Of a stretch of DNA of 28,918 bases, positions 7,814 through 27,487 are shown piece after piece. Source of the stretch: a virus. Positions within the stretch are counted from its first letter, which is position 1. Each line of letters begins with the position of its first letter. The notes beneath the pieces were generated by a model. The model searched no databases, had not been told where the DNA came from, and saw nothing but the letters and a program-made list of their open reading frames with translations. The position numbers and the translations under genes are program-made. The stretch is taken from the IMG/VR virus record IMGVR_UViG_3300042874_000036, positions 1 through 28,918 of that record; one strand, given 5' to 3'.

Positions 7814-8854
7814 ATGAACCCAGAAATTAAAGAAGTCACAATGGACGAATTAAAGGGCATTATGGGAGAAAGCATCAAAGAGCTAATCCCCGCTTTAAAG
7901 TCCGAAGTGATGAGTGAGTTAAAAGCTGGCCTCAAAGATGAGGTCAAGGTTGATAGTGCGGAGGAAAAGACTATCAAGGCTGCCGAGTTTATCAAGGGAG
8001 TATGCAATGGCACATTAGAAAAGAAAGCCATTGATAGCACAAACGACAGTTTTGGCTATACTGTCCCGACTGAACTTTCAAATTTTATCTTGACCGCAAA
8101 AGATAAGATTGCCAAGATGAGAAAATTGGCCTTTGTTTTCCAAATGGCAGGTAATTATCAGTTGCCGACTGAGGGGACCGGCGTGACTGCTTATTGGGTA
8201 GGGGAAAATGAGGAAATTACCGAAAGTAATCCCACAATCGGCAAAAAGAGTTTGACTGATTATTATTTAGCGGCTCGTGTGTTAATCCCTCGTCAGTTGA
8301 TTAACACTTCCGCTTATAATATCGTGAACTTTGTCGGAGAGCTTTGCGCTCGTAAGTTAAGAGACACCGAAGAAACCGCTTTTGTCGCGGGTGACGGAAC
8401 TAACAAGCCTACTGGTTTGCGATCTGCCTCCTTAACGTCTGTTGCGCAAGCCGGCTCCGCCCTTGCTTATTCTGATGTTGTTAATTTGTATTACACTTTA
8501 ACCGAACAGTATCGTGACAATGCGGTATTCTTAACTTCCGCTAAGGGTTGCAAAGCATTAAGAACTATCACGGATGCCAATAGTATGCCAATCTTTGATT
8601 TGCGTGACCAAAAGGTATTCAACAAACCCGTTTTAGAAAGTGCTGACATCCCTGAAAATTTGGGGAGTTCTGCGGACACCACCGAGATTTATTTCGGCGA
8701 TATGTGGTATTACTGGATTAAAGACGGAGAAAAAATGTTTGTTGACACCGATAAGGTATTAAGCAAATTACAGGTTGAATTGGTTGTTGCTCAAGCAGTT
8801 GACGGAGTTTATACTCTACCGGCCGCTTGTCGCAAAATGACTGGCGTTAAATAG
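7814..8854 (+). CDS. major capsid protein, HK97 fold
   Basis: A 346-residue HK97-fold capsid protein. Residues about 1-65 form a charged helical delta-like region, shorter than in HK97. The shell domain follows, with Gly-Tyr-Thr-Val-Pro (near 77), the Tyr-Trp-Val-Gly-Glu segment near 120-125, and a Gly-Asp-Gly-Thr-Asn-Lys-Pro-Thr-Gly loop near 195. This matches the Phage_capsid family. The protease just upstream probably removes the delta region. It ends 7 bases before a strong hairpin (8861-8887), as often seen after highly expressed structural genes. Confidence 0.93.
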   Translation: MNPEIKEVTMDELKGIMGESIKELIPALKSEVMSELKAGLKDEVKVDSAEEKTIKAAEFIKGVCNGTLEKKAIDSTNDSFGYTVPTELSNFILTAKDKIAKMRKLAFVFQMAGNYQLPTEGTGVTAYWVGENEEITESNPTIGKKSLTDYYLAARVLIPRQLINTSAYNIVNFVGELCARKLRDTEETAFVAGDGTNKPTGLRSASLTSVAQAGSALAYSDVVNLYYTLTEQYRDNAVFLTSAKGCKALRTITDANSMPIFDLRDQKVFNKPVLESADIPENLGSSADTTEIYFGDMWYYWIKDGEKMFVDTDKVLSKLQVELVVAQAVDGVYTLPAACRKMTGVK

Positions 8855-8922: not shown

Positions 8923-9114
8923 ATGGCGAAAAACCAAAACAAGAGAGTAGAAAACAAGGTTGTTGAAAGGGCTGAAAAGCCGACCAAAGACATCATGGTT
9001 GTTAAGTTTTTAAAAGCTTTTACTCCTTATGTCAAGGATGAAATTGCGGGCTTTAATAAAAAGTTTGCCTATAAATTGATTGACAAGGAAGTTGCCGAAG
9101 AGTTTACAAAATAA
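8923..9114 (+). CDS. small head-gene-associated protein, 63 aa
   Basis: A 63-residue protein. After a basic N-terminus (residues 1-22) comes a compact module with Val-Lys-Phe-Leu-Lys-Ala-Phe-Thr-Pro-Tyr, then Ile-Ala-Gly-Phe and Ala-Tyr-Lys-Leu-Ile, ending in Val-Ala-Glu-Glu-Phe. From memory, short proteins with this layout are common just after capsid genes in siphoviruses, and their exact role is unclear. The first 36 residues of the next gene, a glycosyltransferase, look like a divergent copy of the same module. That suggests both bind a shared head partner, which is inference. Confidence 0.7.
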   Translation: MAKNQNKRVENKVVERAEKPTKDIMVVKFLKAFTPYVKDEIAGFNKKFAYKLIDKEVAEEFTK

Positions 9115-9116
9115 AT

Positions 9117-10595
9117 ATGAGCAAAATCCTTGTTAAATACATCAAGGGTTTTGAAACTTATGTCCCGGATGATATTAGAGCAATAGAGGTGTCAGAATAT
9201 AAGAAACTAAAAAAAGAGGGCATTGTTATCAAGACCGAAATATTAGAAGAGATTGATGAGGGCGAAGTTAATAATGAGGGGTTAATTGGCGTCAATATTC
9301 TCGGGGTCAAATACAAGAAAGGCTTGATTGATGTTGTTGTGCCGACTAAATCTGATAAAAACATTAAGAGCTTAAAAATTCTCAAAGATGCTGAAAAGGG
9401 AGGGGAAATAACACTAACTTTAATGATTAGAGAGTTTAACGAGCAGGCCGGTGGTTTTGCTCGTTCTTGTAATAACGGGGCAAAGTTAAATAAAGCCCTC
9501 GGGGAGTTTGTTTTATTTTTAAATGATGATGTCAGATTGGGGGAAAACTTTTTTGCTGATTTAATTAAGCCCTTTGCTGATGCTAAGGTTGGGATAGTCG
9601 GGGCTGAATGCTCGGAGACTGGCTTTGGCGTTAATGGGTCGGTTATGTGTATACGCAGAGAGTTATTTGAAAGGATTGGCGGGTTTGATGAAAACTATTT
9701 TTTTATGTGGGAGGACAACGACATGTGTAGAAATGTTAAGAGGAGGGGGTTTACTATTGCTATCTCGGGGGCTGATGCCAAGCACAAAGGGAAAGATAGC
9801 ATCAATACAGGCTCGGAGTTTTGGCGAGTAAATTATTATAAGGGAAAAAACTACTACGAACAAAAGTGGTCCGGGGGACAAAGACTTATTGGATCAATGA
9901 TTGTCGGAGATGAAAATAACCGTTATATGTCCCGGGTTATTACCGACTTATTTAAAAGAGATTTGATTGATGAAATGGTGGTCGTTTGCGATCAGTCAAA
10001 CAATGAAACTGTCGTAGAACTGGAGGAGTTAAAAAAATATTACCCCGTTACTATTAAATATCACGACTTTAAACTATTCGGGGTCGCTGAAAATCTATTG
10101 CGTGAGAGGGCGGTTGATTATGCTATTAGCAAAAACCCGTTCGGCATACTACCGATTGACGCAGACGAGTTTTTAGATGTTGAATTGACCCGTAAAGGAA
10201 TTACAGGTCTATTATATCAAGGAATTGCTTACGACCTCGTCTTGGCCCATTTTTGGGGCAACGAGGACACAGTTAGAACAGACGGATGCTTTTCAAAACA
10301 GCAGAATATTAGGATTTTCCGTTATTGTCCCGAATTGTCGCAGAAATTCTTTGACAGAAACCTACATTGCGGGTCGGCCCCGATTTATGCCTATTCAAAC
10401 AGACAAAAAACAGACTACATCTTGCATCACTTCGGCTATATAAAAAAGAGAGATATTGAGGCAAAGAAAAAAAGACAACTCGCCCACGACCCGAAAATGC
10501 TACTTGAAAACCCGGATTTATATAACAGGATGATTGAGGAGGGAGAAACGATGAAATTTAATAAGGTTGATTTCTTAAAAATTTATAATCAATAG
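9117..10595 (+). CDS. tandem GT2 glycosyltransferase with N-terminal head-protein-like module
   Basis: A 492-residue three-part protein. Residues 1-38 resemble the module of the preceding 63-aa protein. Residues about 65-250 form a family-2 glycosyltransferase domain with Leu-Asn-Asp-Asp-Val at 135-139 and the Gly-Gly-Phe-Asp...Met-Trp-Glu-Asp motif at 188-200, as in rhamnosyltransferase-like GT2 enzymes. Residues about 268-480 form a second GT-A-like domain with Asp-Ala-Asp-Glu at 348-351. It should transfer sugars from nucleotide-sugar donors. Its place between capsid and connector, with a head-type N-terminal module, suggests the acceptor is a virion protein. It starts 2 bases after the preceding stop. 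Confidence 0.85.
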   Translation: MSKILVKYIKGFETYVPDDIRAIEVSEYKKLKKEGIVIKTEILEEIDEGEVNNEGLIGVNILGVKYKKGLIDVVVPTKSDKNIKSLKILKDAEKGGEITLTLMIREFNEQAGGFARSCNNGAKLNKALGEFVLFLNDDVRLGENFFADLIKPFADAKVGIVGAECSETGFGVNGSVMCIRRELFERIGGFDENYFFMWEDNDMCRNVKRRGFTIAISGADAKHKGKDSINTGSEFWRVNYYKGKNYYEQKWSGGQRLIGSMIVGDENNRYMSRVITDLFKRDLIDEMVVVCDQSNNETVVELEELKKYYPVTIKYHDFKLFGVAENLLRERAVDYAISKNPFGILPIDADEFLDVELTRKGITGLLYQGIAYDLVLAHFWGNEDTVRTDGCFSKQQNIRIFRYCPELSQKFFDRNLHCGSAPIYAYSNRQKTDYILHHFGYIKKRDIEAKKKRQLAHDPKMLLENPDLYNRMIEEGETMKFNKVDFLKIYNQ

Positions 10596-10596
10596 A

Positions 10597-11241
10597 ATGA
10601 AAAAAGTCCTCGTTATTACAATTACATACAACAGACTTGATTTGACCAAGCAATACCTCGGGGAGTTAAGGGAAAAGGCTGATTATCCATTTGAACATAT
10701 CATTGTTGATAATGGCTCTACCGATGGCACAGTTGAGTGGTTGCGAGAAAATTGCTATAATGTGATTAGGAATGAGGATAATGAGGGGATAGTTAGTGCG
10801 TGGATTAAAGGGGTCAGAATGGCCCGCCTACAAGGCTTTGAGCCTGATTATATAGTCAAGTTTGATAATGACTGCCAAATCGTCACAGAGGGCATTTTAG
10901 GGCAAATAATGAAGTTCTATGAGGAGGCTGGCGGTGGCTACTGTATAACTGCTCCGATTGACTTGGAAATAGCAGAAGACTACAAACCGGGAATTGTTGA
11001 CGATCGAGCCAAGTGGGGCGACTTCAATGTAATGATTACGAGCCACACAGGCGGGATGCTGACAGCAATGTCTATTGAAGCCTTTGATGATATGGCAAAA
11101 GAGAACGGAGGGCGTGGGGTTGAGAAAGATTGCGATCGTGGTTGGTTTTGGAGGTCTAACGGCTATCAATGCGTTTATTTAAAAGATTTGGGAATCAGAC
11201 ATAAAGGCGAAAGCACAAGCTATAATAAATATAAGTTTTAA
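10597..11241 (+). CDS. GT2 family glycosyltransferase
   Basis: A 214-residue single-domain GT2 enzyme. It has the N-terminal strand with Thr-Tyr-Asn-Arg (10-13), the nucleotide-binding Asp-Asn-Gly-Ser-Thr-Asp-Gly-Thr at 38-45, and a metal-binding Asp-Asn-Asp at 90-92 with the usual preceding Phe. No membrane segment or signal peptide is present, so it acts in the cytoplasm. It starts 1 base after the stop of the larger glycosyltransferase, so the two are translationally linked and probably act in series. Its start is one of only three in the window without T at -1. Confidence 0.88.
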   Translation: MKKVLVITITYNRLDLTKQYLGELREKADYPFEHIIVDNGSTDGTVEWLRENCYNVIRNEDNEGIVSAWIKGVRMARLQGFEPDYIVKFDNDCQIVTEGILGQIMKFYEEAGGGYCITAPIDLEIAEDYKPGIVDDRAKWGDFNVMITSHTGGMLTAMSIEAFDDMAKENGGRGVEKDCDRGWFWRSNGYQCVYLKDLGIRHKGESTSYNKYKF

Positions 11242-11245
11242 AAAT

Positions 11246-11602
11246 ATGATTGATGGAGAAAAATTACAAATCATCCGGGGGGATAGCCAAAGCATAGCGG
11301 TCACCTTTGAGGATGAAGACGGGAATGCGTTAGATTTAACAGGCAAGACTGTATTTTTTACAGTCAAGGATATTGATGATGATGCTGATAATGATGATGA
11401 TGCCTTGATTAAAAAGGAGGTAACGAACCACACAGACCCGACAGCTGGGAAGACAACTATTACAATTGCATCTACCGACACAGATTTGACACCTAATGAC
11501 TATGTTTTTGATTTACAAGTCAAAGATATAGTGGGGAATATTATGAGTACGCAGAGAAGTGTTTTGGAGGTTGTGGCTGATGTCACAAGACGAACAAGCT
11601 AA
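11246..11602 (+). CDS. BppU-type N-terminal Ig-like structural protein, 118 aa
   Basis: A 118-residue beta-rich protein. The opening Ile-Arg-Gly-Asp-Ser, then Val-Thr-Phe-Glu-Asp-Glu-Asp-Gly-Asn, Leu-Thr-Gly-Lys-Thr-Val-Phe-Phe and the later Asp-Leu-Thr-Pro-Asn-Asp-Tyr follow the pattern of the BppU N-terminal (DUF2479-like) Ig fold. In lactococcal phages this fold anchors the upper baseplate protein. In other phages it appears in neck, head or tail appendages. An Asp-rich loop lies at about residues 44-52. Here it sits between glycosyltransferases and a fibre, before the connector, so a head or neck appendage is more likely than a baseplate. Confidence 0.7.
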   Translation: MIDGEKLQIIRGDSQSIAVTFEDEDGNALDLTGKTVFFTVKDIDDDADNDDDALIKKEVTNHTDPTAGKTTITIASTDTDLTPNDYVFDLQVKDIVGNIMSTQRSVLEVVADVTRRTS

Positions 11603-11603
11603 T

Positions 11604-12185
11604 ATGTCCGAAATAAAAGCTACAATCAAAAACAATGAGGTCAGGGCGACAATCAAGCGAGGCTCTGTTGTCGCCAAGATTTTTAATTTGGCTTACAATG
11701 CAACAATTAGGCGTTCGGGAATTTCCGCAATAATATCTCGGCACTCTATTCGTGCGATCATAGAGGGAGGGGTTACATTACAAAACCCACCGCAAGAGGA
11801 AACAGACCCGATTTGGAATGAGGAAAAAGGAAATTATGCCTTAAAGACGGAAGTGCCGACTAAAACATCTCAACTTGAAAATGACTCGGAATTTATCACG
11901 GCGTATGAAGTCCCGCCCGCAACTAACTTTGAATTAGAACTTGCGAGAAAAACATCAGGGAATACTTATATTGAATATATAAAAGACGGGGATGGAAAGC
12001 TAATAAATGTTGATTATTGGGTTGATAGTAGCAAGGCCGTCAAACTATTTTCAAAAGCTCTCATATGGACAGAGAATAAAATAATGCAGGTCGCAATCAC
12101 TAACGAGGAAACATCCGCAATAATGACGACCACGATCGTCTATTCCGGGGGTGAGATTGATAATATAACAAAAGTAATTTCTTAA
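11604..12185 (+). CDS. structural protein with short beta repeats, 193 aa
   Basis: A 193-residue protein. Residues 1-52 contain about five degenerate copies of a short Ile-x-Ala-x-Ile element, each followed by a turn, which suggests a small beta roll or beta-helix cap. The C-terminal half is a separate beta-rich domain with Asp-Gly-Asp-Gly-Lys and several Trp residues. I chose the ATG at 11604 because it follows the previous stop by one base and has T at -1; the frame is also open from 11559. It lies between the BppU-like gene and the coiled-coil and fibre genes and is probably a virion appendage part. Confidence 0.65.
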   Translation: MSEIKATIKNNEVRATIKRGSVVAKIFNLAYNATIRRSGISAIISRHSIRAIIEGGVTLQNPPQEETDPIWNEEKGNYALKTEVPTKTSQLENDSEFITAYEVPPATNFELELARKTSGNTYIEYIKDGDGKLINVDYWVDSSKAVKLFSKALIWTENKIMQVAITNEETSAIMTTTIVYSGGEIDNITKVIS

Positions 12186-12189
12186 TTTT

Positions 12190-12465
12190 ATGGCAACAGA
12201 ACTAATTAGAACAGAAGATCCTAATATTGTCATCGAAAGGACTATTACAGAGAATGTGATTGATTTAGAAAGGATTACAATCGAACTCGAGGGTATGCGT
12301 CTGCTATACGACGACTTACTTAAGAGAAGACATTTATTAGAAGATGTTGAGAGTTTACCCGATTACATAAAAGAGATTGTTTTAAAAGAAAGAGACATTT
12401 TAGACGCTGACATTTCTCTTTGTCAAAATAAAATAGCAGAGCTTAAAGAGCTTTTAATCTTTTAA
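12190..12465 (+). CDS. coiled-coil protein, 91 aa
   Basis: A 91-residue, mostly helical, acidic protein. Heptad-like Leu/Ile spacing appears at about 22-50 and 62-90, fitting a two-segment coiled coil. No catalytic motif or membrane segment is present. It begins 4 bases after the preceding stop and its own stop is 1 base before the fibre ATG. It may be an oligomerisation, chaperone or attachment partner of the fibre, by position only. Confidence 0.6.
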   Translation: MATELIRTEDPNIVIERTITENVIDLERITIELEGMRLLYDDLLKRRHLLEDVESLPDYIKEIVLKERDILDADISLCQNKIAELKELLIF

Positions 12466-12466
12466 T

Positions 12467-14245
12467 ATGGCAGTCAGTATTTATAGATATAGAAAACCTG
12501 AATTAACTGCAACACTGACAGATGGCGGTTCTTTGTTAGCTAATACAACATATTATTTAACGGGGATTTACAATAAGTCTTGGGTTTATAATGGTGTTTT
12601 TAGTCCTTTTGCTGATGTTGTTTCTTTCACTACTGATAGCACAAAAAAAAGCATTTCAATTTATTGGAAAACAACTGTCCCAATTCAAGGTTTTGAAGAT
12701 GCAGGTGGCGGGAAAATAAGGGTCAAAGCAAGCTCTCATTGTTTGATTATTGGAAACACTTTAATTATTGAGAGCGGGGTATATGCTGGAACTTATACTG
12801 TTAATACTTGGGAGAATTATCACTCATTTTTAATTGTCGGAACTTATTCAACTGATTATACAACAACATTTAGAGTAGAGACGATGCACAACGCAATGGC
12901 AAATATTGTCATATATCTTTCGACAACAGCACCTTTTTCTGGCGACCCGCTGGCTGACACTTGGCAAGGAAATATTAGTAACTTTTCACATTATATTTGG
13001 GAAGCAGGGTATACAACAAATAATATTGCGGTATCTGCTGAATTTACAAAACTGTTTTATGGTACACATCCACAGATTGAGATGTCAGTTTCCCCCCCTC
13101 CTCCTTGGTCGGCAGTGCTTACCAAAGGGAAAATTTGGATTGATTGTATAGGCACAGTAACTGTCGGAGAGATAAAACAAGCACTGATTGACGCTGATGC
13201 CCTTGATGTTTCTTATATTCAAGGGAACACATTTTTTCTGTATGGGATATTAAGAAGCTTTAACTCTCTGACCCTGACTGAGATGACAATTCTTGTTTAT
13301 AGCGGTATGTTTGGAGGATTCTCAACCTTTACTCAAATTACACTCGACCGTTGCTCGCTTCATCTTTTGGAAACAGGCTACGGGTCGTATATGTTGATGA
13401 CTGCGACAAGCTCTAATTTTTTCTACGAAAATAAGACTCGGTACTCTCATTTTTCCGGTCCAGTTTATCGTTATGCCGTAGGAGTGGGTAATTCCTTCGT
13501 CACGGCTGCTGGTCTGGGAGCAGAAAATATGGACAGCCCCGTTGTCAATATGAAAATAACCACTAATAGCGGCTCTTCGTGGAGACTGGCAGGAAATCTA
13601 TCGCAAATGAAATATACCAACATTGAGATACAAAACGGGATTCTCTATTTATATTATTTGTCCGCCTCAAGCTATCCTCAAAACCGTCTGATTGACGGAC
13701 TAACAATTAGAAATACTCTCATCTATGATTTTTCTATTCAATATGGTAGTACTCGCCCAGTTTTTGATATAACTAACTGCAACACCTCAAGGGTAAATAA
13801 CAGGAAAGTTTGTTATACTTCATATCAATTTCAGCTCTATACTCACATAACAGATATTTATTTTTGGAGAAAAAAAACGCTCACAGTTTTAGATGAAAAC
13901 GGTTTGCCTATCCCTGGTGCGACTGTTAATTTAAAAGATGAGGCAGGCACAGAATATCCTTATACAACCGATGTCAACGGACAAATAATCTTCGAGGTGT
14001 TGGAGCAAAAATCACTAAGGGGGACAACAGGATACTATTTTACTGAAGTTTATCTTGATAATTGGACACTTACTGTTAGCAAAAGTGGATACGAAAACTA
14101 TAAGAGCAAAACTGTCTATGCTTATTTATTGGAAACAGAGATAGCACTAAAAGAAGCAAAGCCTATTCGCTATTTTTCAGGTGGCGACATAGCGGTCGCA
14201 TCATCCCCGGAAAATGGCTCTGATGCTATACTGGAAAGAATGTAA
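12467..14245 (+). CDS. large beta-rich fibre/adhesin-like structural protein
   Basis: A 592-residue protein rich in Ser, Thr, Tyr and Gly. The N-terminal region (1-150) looks like beta-sandwich structure. The middle (about 250-460) has alternating hydrophobic strands and Asn/Thr turns compatible with a beta-helix. Residues about 467-565 form a carboxypeptidase-regulatory-like (CarboxypepD_reg) Ig fold with Asp-Glu-Asn-Gly-Leu-Pro-Ile-Pro-Gly-Ala. A short tail follows. No signal peptide or hydrolase motif is evident. The gene is T-richer than its neighbours and contains no GATC, which suggests separate history. Position before the connector suggests a head or neck fibre rather than a tail-tip fibre. 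Confidence 0.7.
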   Translation: MAVSIYRYRKPELTATLTDGGSLLANTTYYLTGIYNKSWVYNGVFSPFADVVSFTTDSTKKSISIYWKTTVPIQGFEDAGGGKIRVKASSHCLIIGNTLIIESGVYAGTYTVNTWENYHSFLIVGTYSTDYTTTFRVETMHNAMANIVIYLSTTAPFSGDPLADTWQGNISNFSHYIWEAGYTTNNIAVSAEFTKLFYGTHPQIEMSVSPPPPWSAVLTKGKIWIDCIGTVTVGEIKQALIDADALDVSYIQGNTFFLYGILRSFNSLTLTEMTILVYSGMFGGFSTFTQITLDRCSLHLLETGYGSYMLMTATSSNFFYENKTRYSHFSGPVYRYAVGVGNSFVTAAGLGAENMDSPVVNMKITTNSGSSWRLAGNLSQMKYTNIEIQNGILYLYYLSASSYPQNRLIDGLTIRNTLIYDFSIQYGSTRPVFDITNCNTSRVNNRKVCYTSYQFQLYTHITDIYFWRKKTLTVLDENGLPIPGATVNLKDEAGTEYPYTTDVNGQIIFEVLEQKSLRGTTGYYFTEVYLDNWTLTVSKSGYENYKSKTVYAYLLETEIALKEAKPIRYFSGGDIAVASSPENGSDAILERM

Positions 14246-14272
14246 AAAAAATGCTTTAATTAAATTAAATAT

Positions 14273-14836
14273 ATGATTACTACAAACGAGTTTAAAATAT
14301 TTGCTGATGTCAACTCAAATTTTTATGATGATGCAATCTCGCAAATAGTTGCAGGGGTCAATGCTTTTGTTGAGGCTTACTGCAAAAACAAATTACTAAG
14401 CGGAAATGTTGAGGAGTTTTTTGATGACGACGAAGTTGATGAAGACGGAAATTTGATTTTAAGCAATCGTGTTAATCTATCGGGGCTGGAACTTTTTAAG
14501 AATACCGGGACGGAGTTCGTGCCAGTTTGGACGGAAGTCGCAACAACTCAATATGTGTCTTACCTTGATGAGGGGCGTTTAAGCATAGATGTTGCCGGTC
14601 TATTGTTTTCCGGTCGCAAAGCTTGGAAAGTAACCTATACCGCAGGCTACAAAGCCCAGTCAGCTCCCGCAGATTTGAAAATGGCTTGCTTAAAATTAGC
14701 CGGGGCAGTCTATAACAAAAGAAAATCCGAAGGAGAAAGCTCGGAGGGATTAGACGGGGCGACTGTAAACTTTGCCGGGTCTATTACTGACGAGATTAAA
14801 AGCCTTCTCGCTAAATATAAAAGCTTTGCAATATGA
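14273..14836 (+). CDS. head-tail connector, gp6-like
   Basis: A 187-residue protein with the features of the HK97 gp6 / SPP1 gp15-type connector: an N-terminal helical pair (residues 1-40), an insertion rich in Asp, a Trp-Lys-Val-Thr-Tyr-Thr-Ala-Gly-Tyr segment near residues 122-130, then Ala-Asp-Leu-Lys-Met-Ala-Cys-Leu-Lys-Leu in the final helical part. Connectors bind below the portal after packaging. Its TGA stop overlaps the next start as ATGA. Confidence 0.82.
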   Translation: MITTNEFKIFADVNSNFYDDAISQIVAGVNAFVEAYCKNKLLSGNVEEFFDDDEVDEDGNLILSNRVNLSGLELFKNTGTEFVPVWTEVATTQYVSYLDEGRLSIDVAGLLFSGRKAWKVTYTAGYKAQSAPADLKMACLKLAGAVYNKRKSEGESSEGLDGATVNFAGSITDEIKSLLAKYKSFAI

Positions 14837-21967: not shown

Positions 21968-22984
21968 ATGAAAATTTGGAGTGCAGGCGAAAAATTAAAT
22001 GCGAGTGACCTCAACGAAAATTTTGATGAGGCAATCAGAATTGAGGACAAGACAGAGGACTATGTTGCTAATGCCGATAATGTTGGTCGTGTTTGGTTTA
22101 GGACTGATTTGGTTGGAGTTATTAAAACAGTTATACATCAATTAGAGGCAAGTGCTTGGTCTGTTAGTGGTAATTTATCAACAGCAAGACAATATAATGG
22201 AGGTGCGGGTTTATTAAGTGCCGGGTTGACTGTTGGTGGTAATAATGGAAGTTATCTCAATACAACGGAAGAATTTAATGGCACATCTTGGAGTTCGGGC
22301 GGTAATATGTCAACAACAAGGCAAGGATCTGGTTGTGCAGGATTACAAACTTCCGCAATAACTTTTGGAGGATATAATGGTTCTAATTTATCAAGTTGTG
22401 AGGAATATGACGGAACGAGTTGGAGTTCGGGCGGTAATATGTCAGTTTATAGATTAAATACAAGGGGGGCCGGAACGCTATTGGCCGGTTTAGCAGTTGG
22501 TGGAGAGGACGCTTACGGAACGCATAAAAGTTCGGAGGAATACAACGGAACGAGTTGGTCAAGTGGGACAAGTATGCCAAATGCTACTTATGGCCACGGA
22601 AGTGCAGGGACACAAAGTGAGGGACTTGCTTTTGGATCAGAAAATAATAGTTATGTTAGTCAAACAGTTGAATATAATGGAACAAGTTGGTCATCAAGTA
22701 ATAATTTAGCTACTGGCAGAAAGCAATTAGTTGGTTGTGGATCTCAAACTGCCGGGCTTGCCTCTTGTGGTGCAAACTCAGCTTGGACAGCATTGTCATC
22801 TACGGAAAACTATGACGGGACAAATTGGTCGGCAGGAAGTTCTGCTGTATCGGCAGTTTATCGTAATGGAGGTGCAGGAACACAGGGCAATGCTTTTATG
22901 GCCGGTGCAGATGGTGGATCTACTGCCACGCAAATTTTAGTGTCATCAGCAGAGTATGAAGTTAAACAATTTAGCTTAGAATAA
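21968..22984 (+). CDS. tail fibre with kelch-type beta-propeller repeats
   Basis: A 338-residue protein. Residues 1-55 form the attachment part (Leu-Asn-Ala-Ser-Asp-Leu-Asn-Glu-Asn-Phe, a frequent phage fibre opening). Residues about 60-330 hold six repeats of about 45 residues. Each has a Gly-Ala-Gly step, a Gly-Gly strand, a Glu-Tyr/Phe-Asn/Asp-Gly-Thr segment and a Ser-Trp-Ser strand, the layout of a kelch-like propeller with about six blades. Propellers often bind sugars or proteins, so host recognition is likely. The gene is rich in non-CGATC GATC sites and repeats, unlike its neighbours, which suggests exchange. Confidence 0.8.
   Translation: MKIWSAGEKLNASDLNENFDEAIRIEDKTEDYVANADNVGRVWFRTDLVGVIKTVIHQLEASAWSVSGNLSTARQYNGGAGLLSAGLTVGGNNGSYLNTTEEFNGTSWSSGGNMSTTRQGSGCAGLQTSAITFGGYNGSNLSSCEEYDGTSWSSGGNMSVYRLNTRGAGTLLAGLAVGGEDAYGTHKSSEEYNGTSWSSGTSMPNATYGHGSAGTQSEGLAFGSENNSYVSQTVEYNGTSWSSSNNLATGRKQLVGCGSQTAGLASCGANSAWTALSSTENYDGTNWSAGSSAVSAVYRNGGAGTQGNAFMAGADGGSTATQILVSSAEYEVKQFSLE
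22150..22835 (+). repeat. six tandem coding repeats of about 135 bases (kelch blades)
   Basis: Copies with a Trp codon near 22157, 22286, 22419, 22553, 22684 and 22826 recur every 130-140 bases. The two copies near 22275 and 22410 share the same 22-base stretch from the Trp codon on. The high identity points to recent duplication or homogenisation of blades, which would let the propeller vary by recombination. Confidence 0.7.
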
Positions 22985-24419: not shown

Positions 24420-25520
24420 ATGAACGATTTAATTGAGGGACAATTTGGGGCAGGATGCTTGCCTCAAATAGAGGATAAGCGTGATTTAGCTTTATCGGCC
24501 ACAGGACCCTTTAATTGGGCTCTTGGGTTCGATATTGAGTTAATCCTCGGCTTTCGGGCTTACTGTGCAACAGAGGGGCAATTTTGGGGTCTGGAAGGCC
24601 GTGAGGGGTGGGGTGTTAATCGCTACCGGGAGATAGTCGCAGAGGTTAAAGCTAAAAACATTGCACATTTTAAAATACCAATCAAAAACCAAGGGGCATC
24701 ATCATCTTGCACAGGCCAAGCCCTCGGCTACTATTTATCGGTTTTGAATATGATTGAAACCGGCCGATGGGTTGAGATTTCGGCCCGGGACATTTATGCT
24801 TATATTGCGTTGTCGGGAGGTGGGGCTTATTTGAGGGATGCTCTCGCCCTTGCCTGCGATCGTGGAATTGCCACGGAGGACTTAGTGCCTTGTTATCATA
24901 GGCAGACAGCCAACAATCGTGACTTCATTGACCCATATACAGAAAACGAGTATTTAGTTAAACCGGAGGAAACCGAGGAAATAAAGGTAATCAGAAAAGC
25001 ATTGCAAAGCAAAGAATATGCTTTGATTAGAGGAGAGGTCACTATGGACAAAATGGCCTGGGCTATGCTGATGAACTTCGGCGTTTATTTTGCGGTTGAC
25101 GGAGAGAATAACGGAACTTGGACAAGTGAATACCCGCAACCACCTATAAGCAGAAAATGGGGACACGCATTATTCGGGGCGGTCGCTAAATTGGATGCAG
25201 ACGGAAAAGCCACGATCGGCTTTCCCAACTCTTGGGGAACTGTCGGGGTTAATGGTTGGCAGAAGATAAAAGAAAATTATTATTTGACTGGGGCAGTCAA
25301 CTCGCCTTGGTCGTTAAGAGATAAAAACAACAATATGAAAAACAACAATGTCAAAGTTATCAAAGACAGTAATAGCCCGGCAGTTGGTATTTGGTTGCCG
25401 GCATTATCACAGGAGGCTCTGGAAAGTTTGTGTATGAACTTCGGAATTGAAATACCAAAGAAAGCGGATGGCTCGGTTGACTGGAATGCTTGGACGGACG
25501 GGACACTTGTATTAAAATAG
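24420..25520 (+). CDS. papain-like (C1 family) cysteine peptidase in the endolysin position
   Basis: A 366-residue protein with the catalytic layout of papain-fold C1 peptidases. The oxyanion Gln91 lies in Lys-Asn-Gln-Gly and the nucleophile Cys97 in Ser-Ser-Cys-Thr-Gly. His249 lies in Trp-Gly-His-Ala and Asn270 in Pro-Asn-Ser-Trp-Gly. The N-terminal Leu-Pro...Asp-Lys-Arg-Asp-Leu segment is like the start of bacterial C1 domains. A separate C-terminal part (about 310-366) has an unknown Trp-containing motif. No signal peptide is seen. Directly after four small membrane genes, it holds the place of an endolysin. It might cleave peptidoglycan cross-links or cell-surface protein, or be virion-associated. 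Confidence 0.85.
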   Translation: MNDLIEGQFGAGCLPQIEDKRDLALSATGPFNWALGFDIELILGFRAYCATEGQFWGLEGREGWGVNRYREIVAEVKAKNIAHFKIPIKNQGASSSCTGQALGYYLSVLNMIETGRWVEISARDIYAYIALSGGGAYLRDALALACDRGIATEDLVPCYHRQTANNRDFIDPYTENEYLVKPEETEEIKVIRKALQSKEYALIRGEVTMDKMAWAMLMNFGVYFAVDGENNGTWTSEYPQPPISRKWGHALFGAVAKLDADGKATIGFPNSWGTVGVNGWQKIKENYYLTGAVNSPWSLRDKNNNMKNNNVKVIKDSNSPAVGIWLPALSQEALESLCMNFGIEIPKKADGSVDWNAWTDGTLVLK

Positions 25521-26932: not shown

Positions 26933-27487
26933 ATGGAAAACACAAAAACAAAAAAGGTCTATTTGACCAAAAAGAGAAAAACTAAAAAGTTGAAAGCCAA
27001 ATTGATTGCTTGGCTGATTGTCGGGGGAACTTTGGCCGGTGTAATTACTTATAACTCCATTAAGCTAAATCAAAGCATAGAGGACTTAACCACGATCGGA
27101 GAACAGGTCGCAAAGCAAGAGAAAAGAATTGAGGTAATTGAGGTATTAAGCGAAACAATCCGGGAAGTGACTGCCTATAATGTCGGCGACCCGGCACAGA
27201 CAGACGATAGCCCTTGCATCGGTGCTTATTCAAAGGTCAACTTATGTGAGGAAATAAAGAAAGGAACAAAAATTTGTGCGGCCAATTTCGTGCCTCTTGG
27301 GACTAAGTTGCAGATTATAGCCGGGAATGGTTGGGAGTTTGAGTGCGTAGTTTGGGATAGAATGAACAGTCGCTATGCTAAAAGGGTTGATGTCGCAATG
27401 TCATTGGAGGAAAAAGACAGGGCGGTTAAATTTGGACTTCAAAACCTAACTGTCAGAATTTTAGGAGATAGAGAATTTATAAATTAA
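26933..27487 (+). CDS. membrane-anchored 3D-domain protein (putative cell-wall enzyme)
   Basis: A 184-residue protein with a very basic N-terminus (1-22), one membrane helix (about 24-41) and a short coiled linker. A 3D domain (about 78-178) follows, the double-psi barrel fold seen in MltA- and RlpA-like proteins. Visible motifs are Thr-Ala-Tyr-Asn, Thr-Asp-Asp-Ser-Pro (90-94), Pro-Leu-Gly-Thr (121-124), Val-Trp-Asp-Arg-Met-Asn (140-145) and Val-Asp-Val-Ala-Met (152-156), with the three Asp of the family. Several Cys may form disulfides. The topology puts the domain outside the membrane, fitting cell-wall cleavage or lysis. It starts 4 bases after the preceding stop. Confidence 0.8.
   Translation: MENTKTKKVYLTKKRKTKKLKAKLIAWLIVGGTLAGVITYNSIKLNQSIEDLTTIGEQVAKQEKRIEVIEVLSETIREVTAYNVGDPAQTDDSPCIGAYSKVNLCEEIKKGTKICAANFVPLGTKLQIIAGNGWEFECVVWDRMNSRYAKRVDVAMSLEEKDRAVKFGLQNLTVRILGDREFIN

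Follow-up and report, generated by a model that had tools for sequence, protein, structure and literature searches.

A candidate capsid-surface glycosylation cassette beside a separable BppU-like fibre module in the capsid-connector slot of an uncultivated virus

Results

Two modules between the capsid and connector genes

The window analysed here is the whole 28.9-kb contig of an uncultivated virus (28,918 nucleotides; IMG/VR record IMGVR_UViG_3300042874_000036). Between its capsid and connector genes, at positions 8923-14245, lie seven open reading frames (ORFs), all on the + strand and separated by gaps of 1-7 bases, which make up two independent modules: a glycan cassette with the glycosyltransferases (GTs) GTa and GTb (module A), and a BppU-like adaptor with a replaceable fibre (module B). 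Judged from sequence, this arrangement is best read as a capsid-surface glycosylation cassette beside a separable head-fibre module, a reading to which we would assign a probability of roughly 0.58. It builds on the observed gene order and domain make-up, on a domain common to GTa and the 63-amino-acid (aa) protein p63, on the independent variation of both modules and on the synteny of module B in Streptomyces phages. The seven co-oriented, nearly abutting genes, the HK97-type capsid and connector genes flanking them and the two GT2 glycosyltransferases, all of which had been listed in a preliminary description of this stretch, were recovered at the same places, both GTs scoring above the Pfam GT2 cut-offs (E 3e-11 and 1.5e-17). 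The genes of the slot and its borders are as follows.

7814..8854, + strand: HK97-type major capsid protein, 346 aa, left border (PF05065, 163.7 bits; phrog_10, E 8e-46)
8923..9114, + strand: p63, small head-slot protein, 63 aa (directly 3′ of the capsid gene in relatives; weak phrog_38773 match, E 6e-4)
9117..10595, + strand: GTa, tandem GT-A glycosyltransferase with N-terminal p63-like domain, 492 aa (Pfam GT2 matches in two stretches; AlphaFold2 (AF2) model)
9117..9245, + strand: p63-like domain of GTa, residues 1-43 (hhalign, p63 model matches in orthologues, predicted secondary structure)
9315..9872, + strand: first GT-A domain of GTa (Pfam GT2; NDD at residues 136-138, EDND at 199-202)
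9885..10376, + strand: second GT-A domain of GTa (PF00535 at residues 270-360; PIDADE around 346-351, HCGS at 417-420)
10597..11241, + strand: GTb, GT2 glycosyltransferase, 214 aa (PF00535, E 1.5e-17)
11246..11602, + strand: BppU/LtfC-like beta-sandwich adaptor, 118 aa (PF10651, E 5e-5; phrog_1084, E 3e-11)
11604..12185, + strand: short-repeat protein, about 193 aa, probable fibre-attachment protein (EIKATIKNN/EVRATIKRG-type strands, read directly from the sequence)
12190..12465, + strand: charged, helical-looking protein, 91 aa, possibly a coiled coil as judged from its residues
12467..14245, + strand: putative fibre with C-terminal immunoglobulin (Ig)-like domain, 592 aa (PF13620 at the cut-off; slot position)
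14273..14836, + strand: gp6-like head-tail connector, right border (PF05135, E 9e-12; phrog_442, E 1e-16)

The preliminary description had proposed that the enzymes glycosylate an appendage built by the genes following them, and had itself named variation of the GTs independently of the fibre as evidence against this model. Such variation is what is observed among the relatives. GTs without BppU or fibre occur in at least eight of them (L002, L006, L015, L016, L028, L029/L030, L031 and L067), and a BppU-like gene and a fibre gene without any GT lie between capsid and adaptor in Streptomyces phages. The closest view of the exchange is given by relative L008, whose nucleotide similarity to the window extends through GTa, breaks exactly at the L008 methyltransferase gene and resumes through GTb. 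From there it runs to position 11518, covering most of BppU, and reappears only at 14663 in the connector gene. As no similarity is left in 11518-14663, BppU was kept together with GTa and GTb, and everything between BppU and the connector was replaced. Because GTs and BppU-fibre vary independently, a single coupled GT-plus-fibre module was rejected. Of the proposed capsid-surface glycosylation and fibre module, a glycan cassette beside a probable head-fibre module is left standing, whereas the coupling of enzyme to appendage is not supported.

Slot content in related loci

A scan with the capsid protein yielded 13 viral loci and a genome scan seven loci in metagenome-assembled genomes (MAGs), namely from Paceibacterota, Falkowbacteria (two), Moraniibacteriota, two Bacteroidota bins and Desulfobacteraceae. 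The capsid protein of the window is 57-81% identical to those of its relatives. Eight loci (L007, L009, L010, L017, L018, L019, L021, L022) have p63 alone in the slot. Others carry p63 and GTa (L006 and near-copies), GTa and GTb (L067) or GTa, a methyltransferase and GTb (L002, L016 and L015, the record of which begins inside GTa at its left end). In L008 the latter set is followed by BppU, a 655-aa and a 92-aa protein. GTa, a P-loop kinase-like gene and GTb are found in L028 and L031, the latter also having a methyltransferase, and L029/L030 contain GTa in the slot without a separate p63. Quite different cassettes are present in L032, where an 849-aa fusion of p63, GT-A, GT-B and GT-B domains precedes two GT2 genes, and in L012, where a p63-zinc-finger protein precedes GT-B, FkbM methyltransferase and GT genes; L020 is similar. 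In every relative carrying GTa, its gene lies directly 3′ of the capsid gene or of capsid-p63. In a capsid tree the GT-less group from Patescibacteria bins (L007, L009, L010, L017-L019) forms one clade, and sister branches hold different cassettes (e.g., L029 and L032), several deep branches being weakly supported. Since differing cassettes occupy the capsid-connector slot across this tree, the slot is fixed and its content exchanged. This variable cassette, with methyltransferase, kinase-like and GT-B/FkbM genes elsewhere, had been overlooked in the earlier reading, as had the domain common to p63 and GTa and a separate tail-end fibre locus (both described below).

Loci L057 and L058, which have a different capsid protein, carry a tandem GT2 gene (L057:5287-6783, L058:5185-6651) directly 3′ of the capsid gene, then a homologue of GTb and a methyltransferase gene, and thus the same kind of glycan cassette behind another capsid. 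The tandem enzyme has a small N-terminal segment and zinc-finger-like cysteines. A triple-GT fusion of 825-1020 aa recurs in uncultivated phages (e.g., L032:4734-7283, L046:3527-6025); it is located in the terminase-portal gap in L046-L051 and behind the capsid gene, with a p63 domain, in L032. Loci L017, L018, L019 and L022 lie on 52-146-kb contigs of Patescibacteria MAGs (Paceibacterota, Falkowbacteria, Moraniibacteriota), which makes them candidate phages or prophages of bacteria of the candidate phyla radiation (CPR); none of the four has a GT cassette.

A p63-like domain on GTa

The small protein p63 is conserved, its gene directly following that of the capsid whether or not a relative has GTs. 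It consists of a disordered N-terminus and a beta-beta-alpha-beta domain of ~40 aa (residues 24-60), over most of which the predicted local distance difference test score (pLDDT) of the AF2 model exceeds 90. No DUF7210/DUF7302-type Pfam match above the cut-off was obtained for this domain (DUF7210: best E 0.053, in two of 24 members), and a search of the PDB sequences with p63 and with BppU gave no match for either.

A comparison of the p63 profile with the N-terminus of GTa gave E 8e-6 at a probability of 84% (hhalign), and the AF2 models have the same predicted elements in p63 and in GTa residues 1-42 at a constant offset of 21 residues, the two models being not wholly independent because the alignment used for p63 contained both groups of sequences. 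A hidden Markov model (HMM) restricted to p63 from GT-less phages was also run over 2149 sequences. It matched residues 1-42 of GTa in L028 (E 6e-6), L031 (E 1e-4) and L029 (E 9e-4), of the triple-GT fusion of L032 (E 2e-5), of the p63-zinc-finger protein of L012 (E 2e-4) and of its counterpart in L020 (E 4e-4), and the best ORF outside the p63 and GTa families reached only E 2.9. By profile comparison, the first ~40 residues of GTa are a paralogue of the standalone p63. This domain may dock the GT enzymes on the head, as it exists as a separate protein among the head genes, various sugar enzymes of the capsid slot carry it as a fusion, and the fused form is the sole copy in L029 and L032.

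Two further groups of N-termini were considered. Those of the 825-832-aa GT fusions of L046-L051 resemble p63 by eye, but a p63 domain is not claimed for them since hhalign gave E 0.14 and a probability of 0.4%. For the tandem GT of L057/L058 the values (E 0.022, probability 2%) are suggestive only, and DUF7302 bears no more than a resemblance to L057 (E 0.054).

The glycosyltransferases

The window encodes two GT2 proteins with together three GT domains in this slot, which show both a Pfam GT2 match (PF13641/PF00535) above the cut-off and a DxD-like metal motif, as is characteristic of GT2 enzymes with a GT-A fold. The NDD and EDND motifs of GTa are invariant across eight orthologues, and the D-x-DE motif and HCGS of its second unit are likewise kept. 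This second GT-A domain exists as a standalone 230-aa protein in L032. The PDB folds nearest to the AF2 model of GTa are K4 chondroitin polymerase (E 7e-12), LH3, SunS and COLGALT1, and LH3, COLGALT1 and SunS are protein glycosylators with tandem GT-A folds. The structural matches of the modelled GTa are thus enzymes which make alternating sugars or glycosylate proteins, and GTa itself would build a disaccharide. No relatives of GTa were found among 50,697 phage records, and GTb gave only weak matches, in unannotated faecal contigs. The GTb orthologues of L002, L008 and L015 are 56-70% identical.

The BppU-like adaptor and the fibre module

The match of the adaptor to BppU_N (PF10651) passes marginally (23.4 bits, cut-off 23.1), and its naming as BppU-like in the preliminary description is backed by phrog_1084 and by Streptomyces phage homologues. 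The L008 homologue is 52% identical by BLASTP (57% over the alignment). As the gene sits between capsid and connector, outside any baseplate or tail-tip gene block, the protein was filed as BppU-like only. The homologue from Streptomyces phages (33%, E 6e-5) is found in BillNye and Beuffert (Stanwilliamsviridae), where the order is capsid, a 132/133-aa gene, BppU-like gene, fibre and adaptor, with no GT. The BillNye protein matches an LtfC-like domain just under the cut-off (E 1.3e-5).

The short repeat that had been described for 11604-12185 is present in the protein, and no tandem repeat was found in the DNA of 11500-12300. Its strand-like repeats would suit a strand donation of the LtfC type by analogy with phage DT57C, where LtfC receives short beta-strands from the N-termini of the fibre (PMC10713586). 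The same motif (EIKATI) is found at the start of the 655-aa protein of L008 (MPNEIKATIVKNQINVTLEGD), residues 167-264 of which match phage minor tail proteins. The 91-aa protein has no family match among the Pfam and PHROG profiles. The 592-aa ORF exists as described, but its name as a fibre is an interpretation, for only its C-terminal carboxypeptidase-regulatory/Ig-like domain was recognised (PF13620, E 1.3e-7, exactly at the Pfam cut-off) and no homologue was found in the viral contig or phage collections. Its place in the slot is taken in L008 by the fibre-like 655-aa protein.

One further feature bears on the location of this module.

21968..22984, + strand: protein at the usual tail-end fibre position, 338 aa (phrog_27227, E 3.5e-34)

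Relatives of the window have proteins of 424-577 aa at this position. The BppU-like/fibre module likely forms a head fibre, because Streptomyces phages keep the capsid-side order without GTs and because the window has this second, ordinary tail-end fibre locus.

Other genes of the window

A further GT gene lies near the left end of the window.

1549-2289: TET-associated glycosyltransferase (TAGT; PF20691, E 1e-22)

This gene is 81-84% conserved in several relatives, and no recognisable source of a hydroxymethylated base was seen among the ten scanned L039 proteins of the 36-kb relative G007. The latter (L008 plus L039, 36.2 kb) seems to represent a nearly complete genome, with both of its contig ends aligning to the left part of the window. 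At the G007 contig end (L039:18004-18705) a ParB frame continues into a fragment of the TAGT gene; an assembly join of a circular or permuted genome is the probable cause.

A 366-aa protein (24420-25520) with a papain-like motif (IKNQGASSSCTGQA) is conserved in relatives near lysis genes and has no Pfam match; possibly it is an unusual cysteine peptidase or lysin. The 184-aa protein encoded at 26933-27487 begins with a membrane segment, has a C-terminus resembling a 3D domain (AYNVGDPAQTDDSPCIGA) and is probably a lytic enzyme. A scan for promoters and terminators gave no clear excess over shuffled sequences.

Discussion

In the scheme proposed here, the docking, the acceptor, the order of the sugars, the strand donation and the head location are what we infer. 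The capsid-to-connector gap would be an insertion slot for two independent late-gene modules. Module A would decorate the virion head with glycans. GTa (p63 domain, GT-A, GT-A) and GTb would be cytoplasmic enzymes produced together with the capsid, and GTa would dock on the head via its p63-like domain, either on the partner of p63 or on p63's own site. Its two GT-A units would attach the first and the second sugar to an acceptor at the capsid surface, with the major capsid protein and p63 as the candidates. GTb, in relatives together with the methyltransferase, would extend or cap the sugar chain. Module B would form an appendage in which the BppU/LtfC-like adaptor, arranged as a ring or patch, takes up short N-terminal beta-strands of fibre polypeptides (11604-12185, followed by 12467-14245); the resulting fibre would be exchangeable and would most likely stand on the head.

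Several points weigh against this scheme. A glycan on the virion, its acceptor and its sugar are predictions from gene content. The AF2 model of GTa is of modest confidence (mean pLDDT 70, predicted template modelling score (pTM) 0.48), and the PDB fold neighbours of p63 (the N-terminal domain of ribosomal protein L9, GINS) all have E >0.1. The restricted HMM missed the N-terminal domain of the window's own GTa, for which the call rests on a broader p63 model (E 0.001), the profile comparison and orthology. Pairs of p63 and GTa N-terminus from the same genome are no more alike than pairs across genomes (permutation p 0.11). Co-evolution, which had been considered as a sign of a common partner, is therefore not significant and does not back a shared partner. 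As the BppU and LtfC proteins of known structure sit at the tail tip, module B may instead occupy a tail or collar site.

The last point leads to the strongest of the alternatives, by which the BppU-like and fibre genes encode a tail-tip or collar fibre that is merely encoded early. With BppU of TP901-1 and LtfC of DT57C being tail-tip adaptors, part of the L008 fibre resembling minor tail proteins and Beuffert gp29 being annotated as a minor tail protein, this is a serious possibility, if a less probable one than a head fibre, as the tail-end fibre position is separately occupied in the window and its relatives and the capsid-side position recurs in unrelated Streptomyces phages. Rather doubtful is the idea that the p63 domain on GTs does not dock and is a non-functional leftover of an insertion into, or a duplication of, p63. 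In its favour, the fusion always takes in the translation start, and no within-genome co-evolution was seen; yet GTa orthologues as little as 46% identical still have the domain, among them L029 with its sole p63 copy, and it is present on GTs of unrelated architecture in L032. We also regard it as unlikely that the p63-domain GTs are virion components, tethered at many capsid sites, which glycosylate the shell while it is being assembled or the host surface once the particle arrives; in that reading, one and the same docking domain would have been acquired by at least two unrelated GT architectures (tandem GT-A; GT-A plus two GT-B) and by a zinc-finger protein.

Because of the TAGT gene upstream, DNA glycosylation was considered as well, in which GTa and GTb would extend a sugar put on phage DNA by TAGT. 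PF20691 matches occur in the window and in L002, L003, L006, L008 and L016, and multi-GT pathways for phage DNA glycans have been described (Pyle 2024, as cited in PMC12619734). This pathway is nevertheless improbable here: no TET/JBP match was found in any record, though the positive control gave none either and the records are incomplete, no hydroxymethylase was among ten scanned L039 proteins of the near-complete relative, the records of other GTa carriers such as L028-L031, which are fragments, had no TAGT match, and the GT genes track the capsid slot and bear a head-slot domain. Somewhat less probable still is an alteration of host surface polysaccharide for superinfection exclusion or serotype change. 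Phage GT2 enzymes often act in this way, and GTb is weakly similar to the GtrB-like family phrog_841 (E 3e-5), but neither a flippase gene nor one for a membrane anchor was seen next to the GTs, which have a late structural location, a p63 fusion and no stand-alone serotype-conversion operon. Glycosylation of a fibre or neck appendage encoded 3′ of the GTs would fit with the abutting, co-oriented genes and with the GTs preceding the fibre in both genomes that have a fibre here. It is the least probable of these alternatives, given the relatives with GTs and no fibre, the Streptomyces phages with BppU-fibre and no GTs, and the GTs that stay while the fibre is replaced.

The uncultivated phages of this lineage, several of them from Patescibacteria bins, reserve a slot next to the capsid gene for glycan genes, the enzymes of which bear a copy of a head-gene domain. 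Should the p63-like domain indeed dock, this would be a simple rule for aiming protein glycosylation at a phage's own shell and would provide a sequence tag for finding further systems of this type. The BppU-fibre block in common with Streptomyces phages points to an overlooked type of head fibre.

Comparison with known systems

Capsid glycosylation in phages has so far been described mainly in mycobacteriophages. Virions of Che8, Corndog and Myrna are glycosylated by phage GTs (PMC12363180; for Che8 and Corndog: Freeman et al. 2023, as cited in PMC12363180 and PMC11256854). The head gene block of Corndog contains, from portal to protease, an O-methyltransferase and several GTs, and gp35-gp38 were not found in virions (PMC4351075). 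As in Che8 and Corndog, the GTs of the window are phage-encoded, and as in Corndog their genes are linked to head genes. Corndog, with its established capsid modification, is thus a close functional parallel, but the genes of the window lie between capsid and connector, and its GTa is a tandem GT-A enzyme with a p63-like domain, whereas the available part of the Corndog account reports no head-gene domain on its enzymes. Two GT-A units per chain are also found in K4 chondroitin polymerase, LH3 and COLGALT1, which rank at the top of the PDB matches to the modelled GTa; unlike these, GTa is viral, soluble-looking and has the p63 domain.

For module B, the head-fibre gene gp8.5 of phi29 adjoins the capsid gene, and BppU of TP901-1 is an adaptor at the tail tip. 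Head fibres are also carried by crAss001 (gp21 and gp29; PMC10172136). If it forms a head fibre, the module resembles those of phi29 and crAss001, which have fibres on HK97-fold heads and for which the accessible parts of the accounts report no BppU/LtfC-like adaptor or GTs together with the head fibres. With BppU of TP901-1 and LtfC of T5/DT57C it shares a beta-sandwich adaptor gene adjoining a fibre gene, LtfC taking up N-terminal strands of the fibre, but those adaptors are located at the tail tip, whereas the gene of the window is capsid-side and its fibre unrelated. BillNye and Beuffert share the gene order and have a homologous BppU-like protein; they differ in having no GTs and an unrelated fibre, and the function of the block is putative there as well. 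Compared with these systems, what appears to be new in the window is a glycan cassette on the capsid side whose lead enzyme bears a head-slot domain, next to a separable fibre module of the BppU type.

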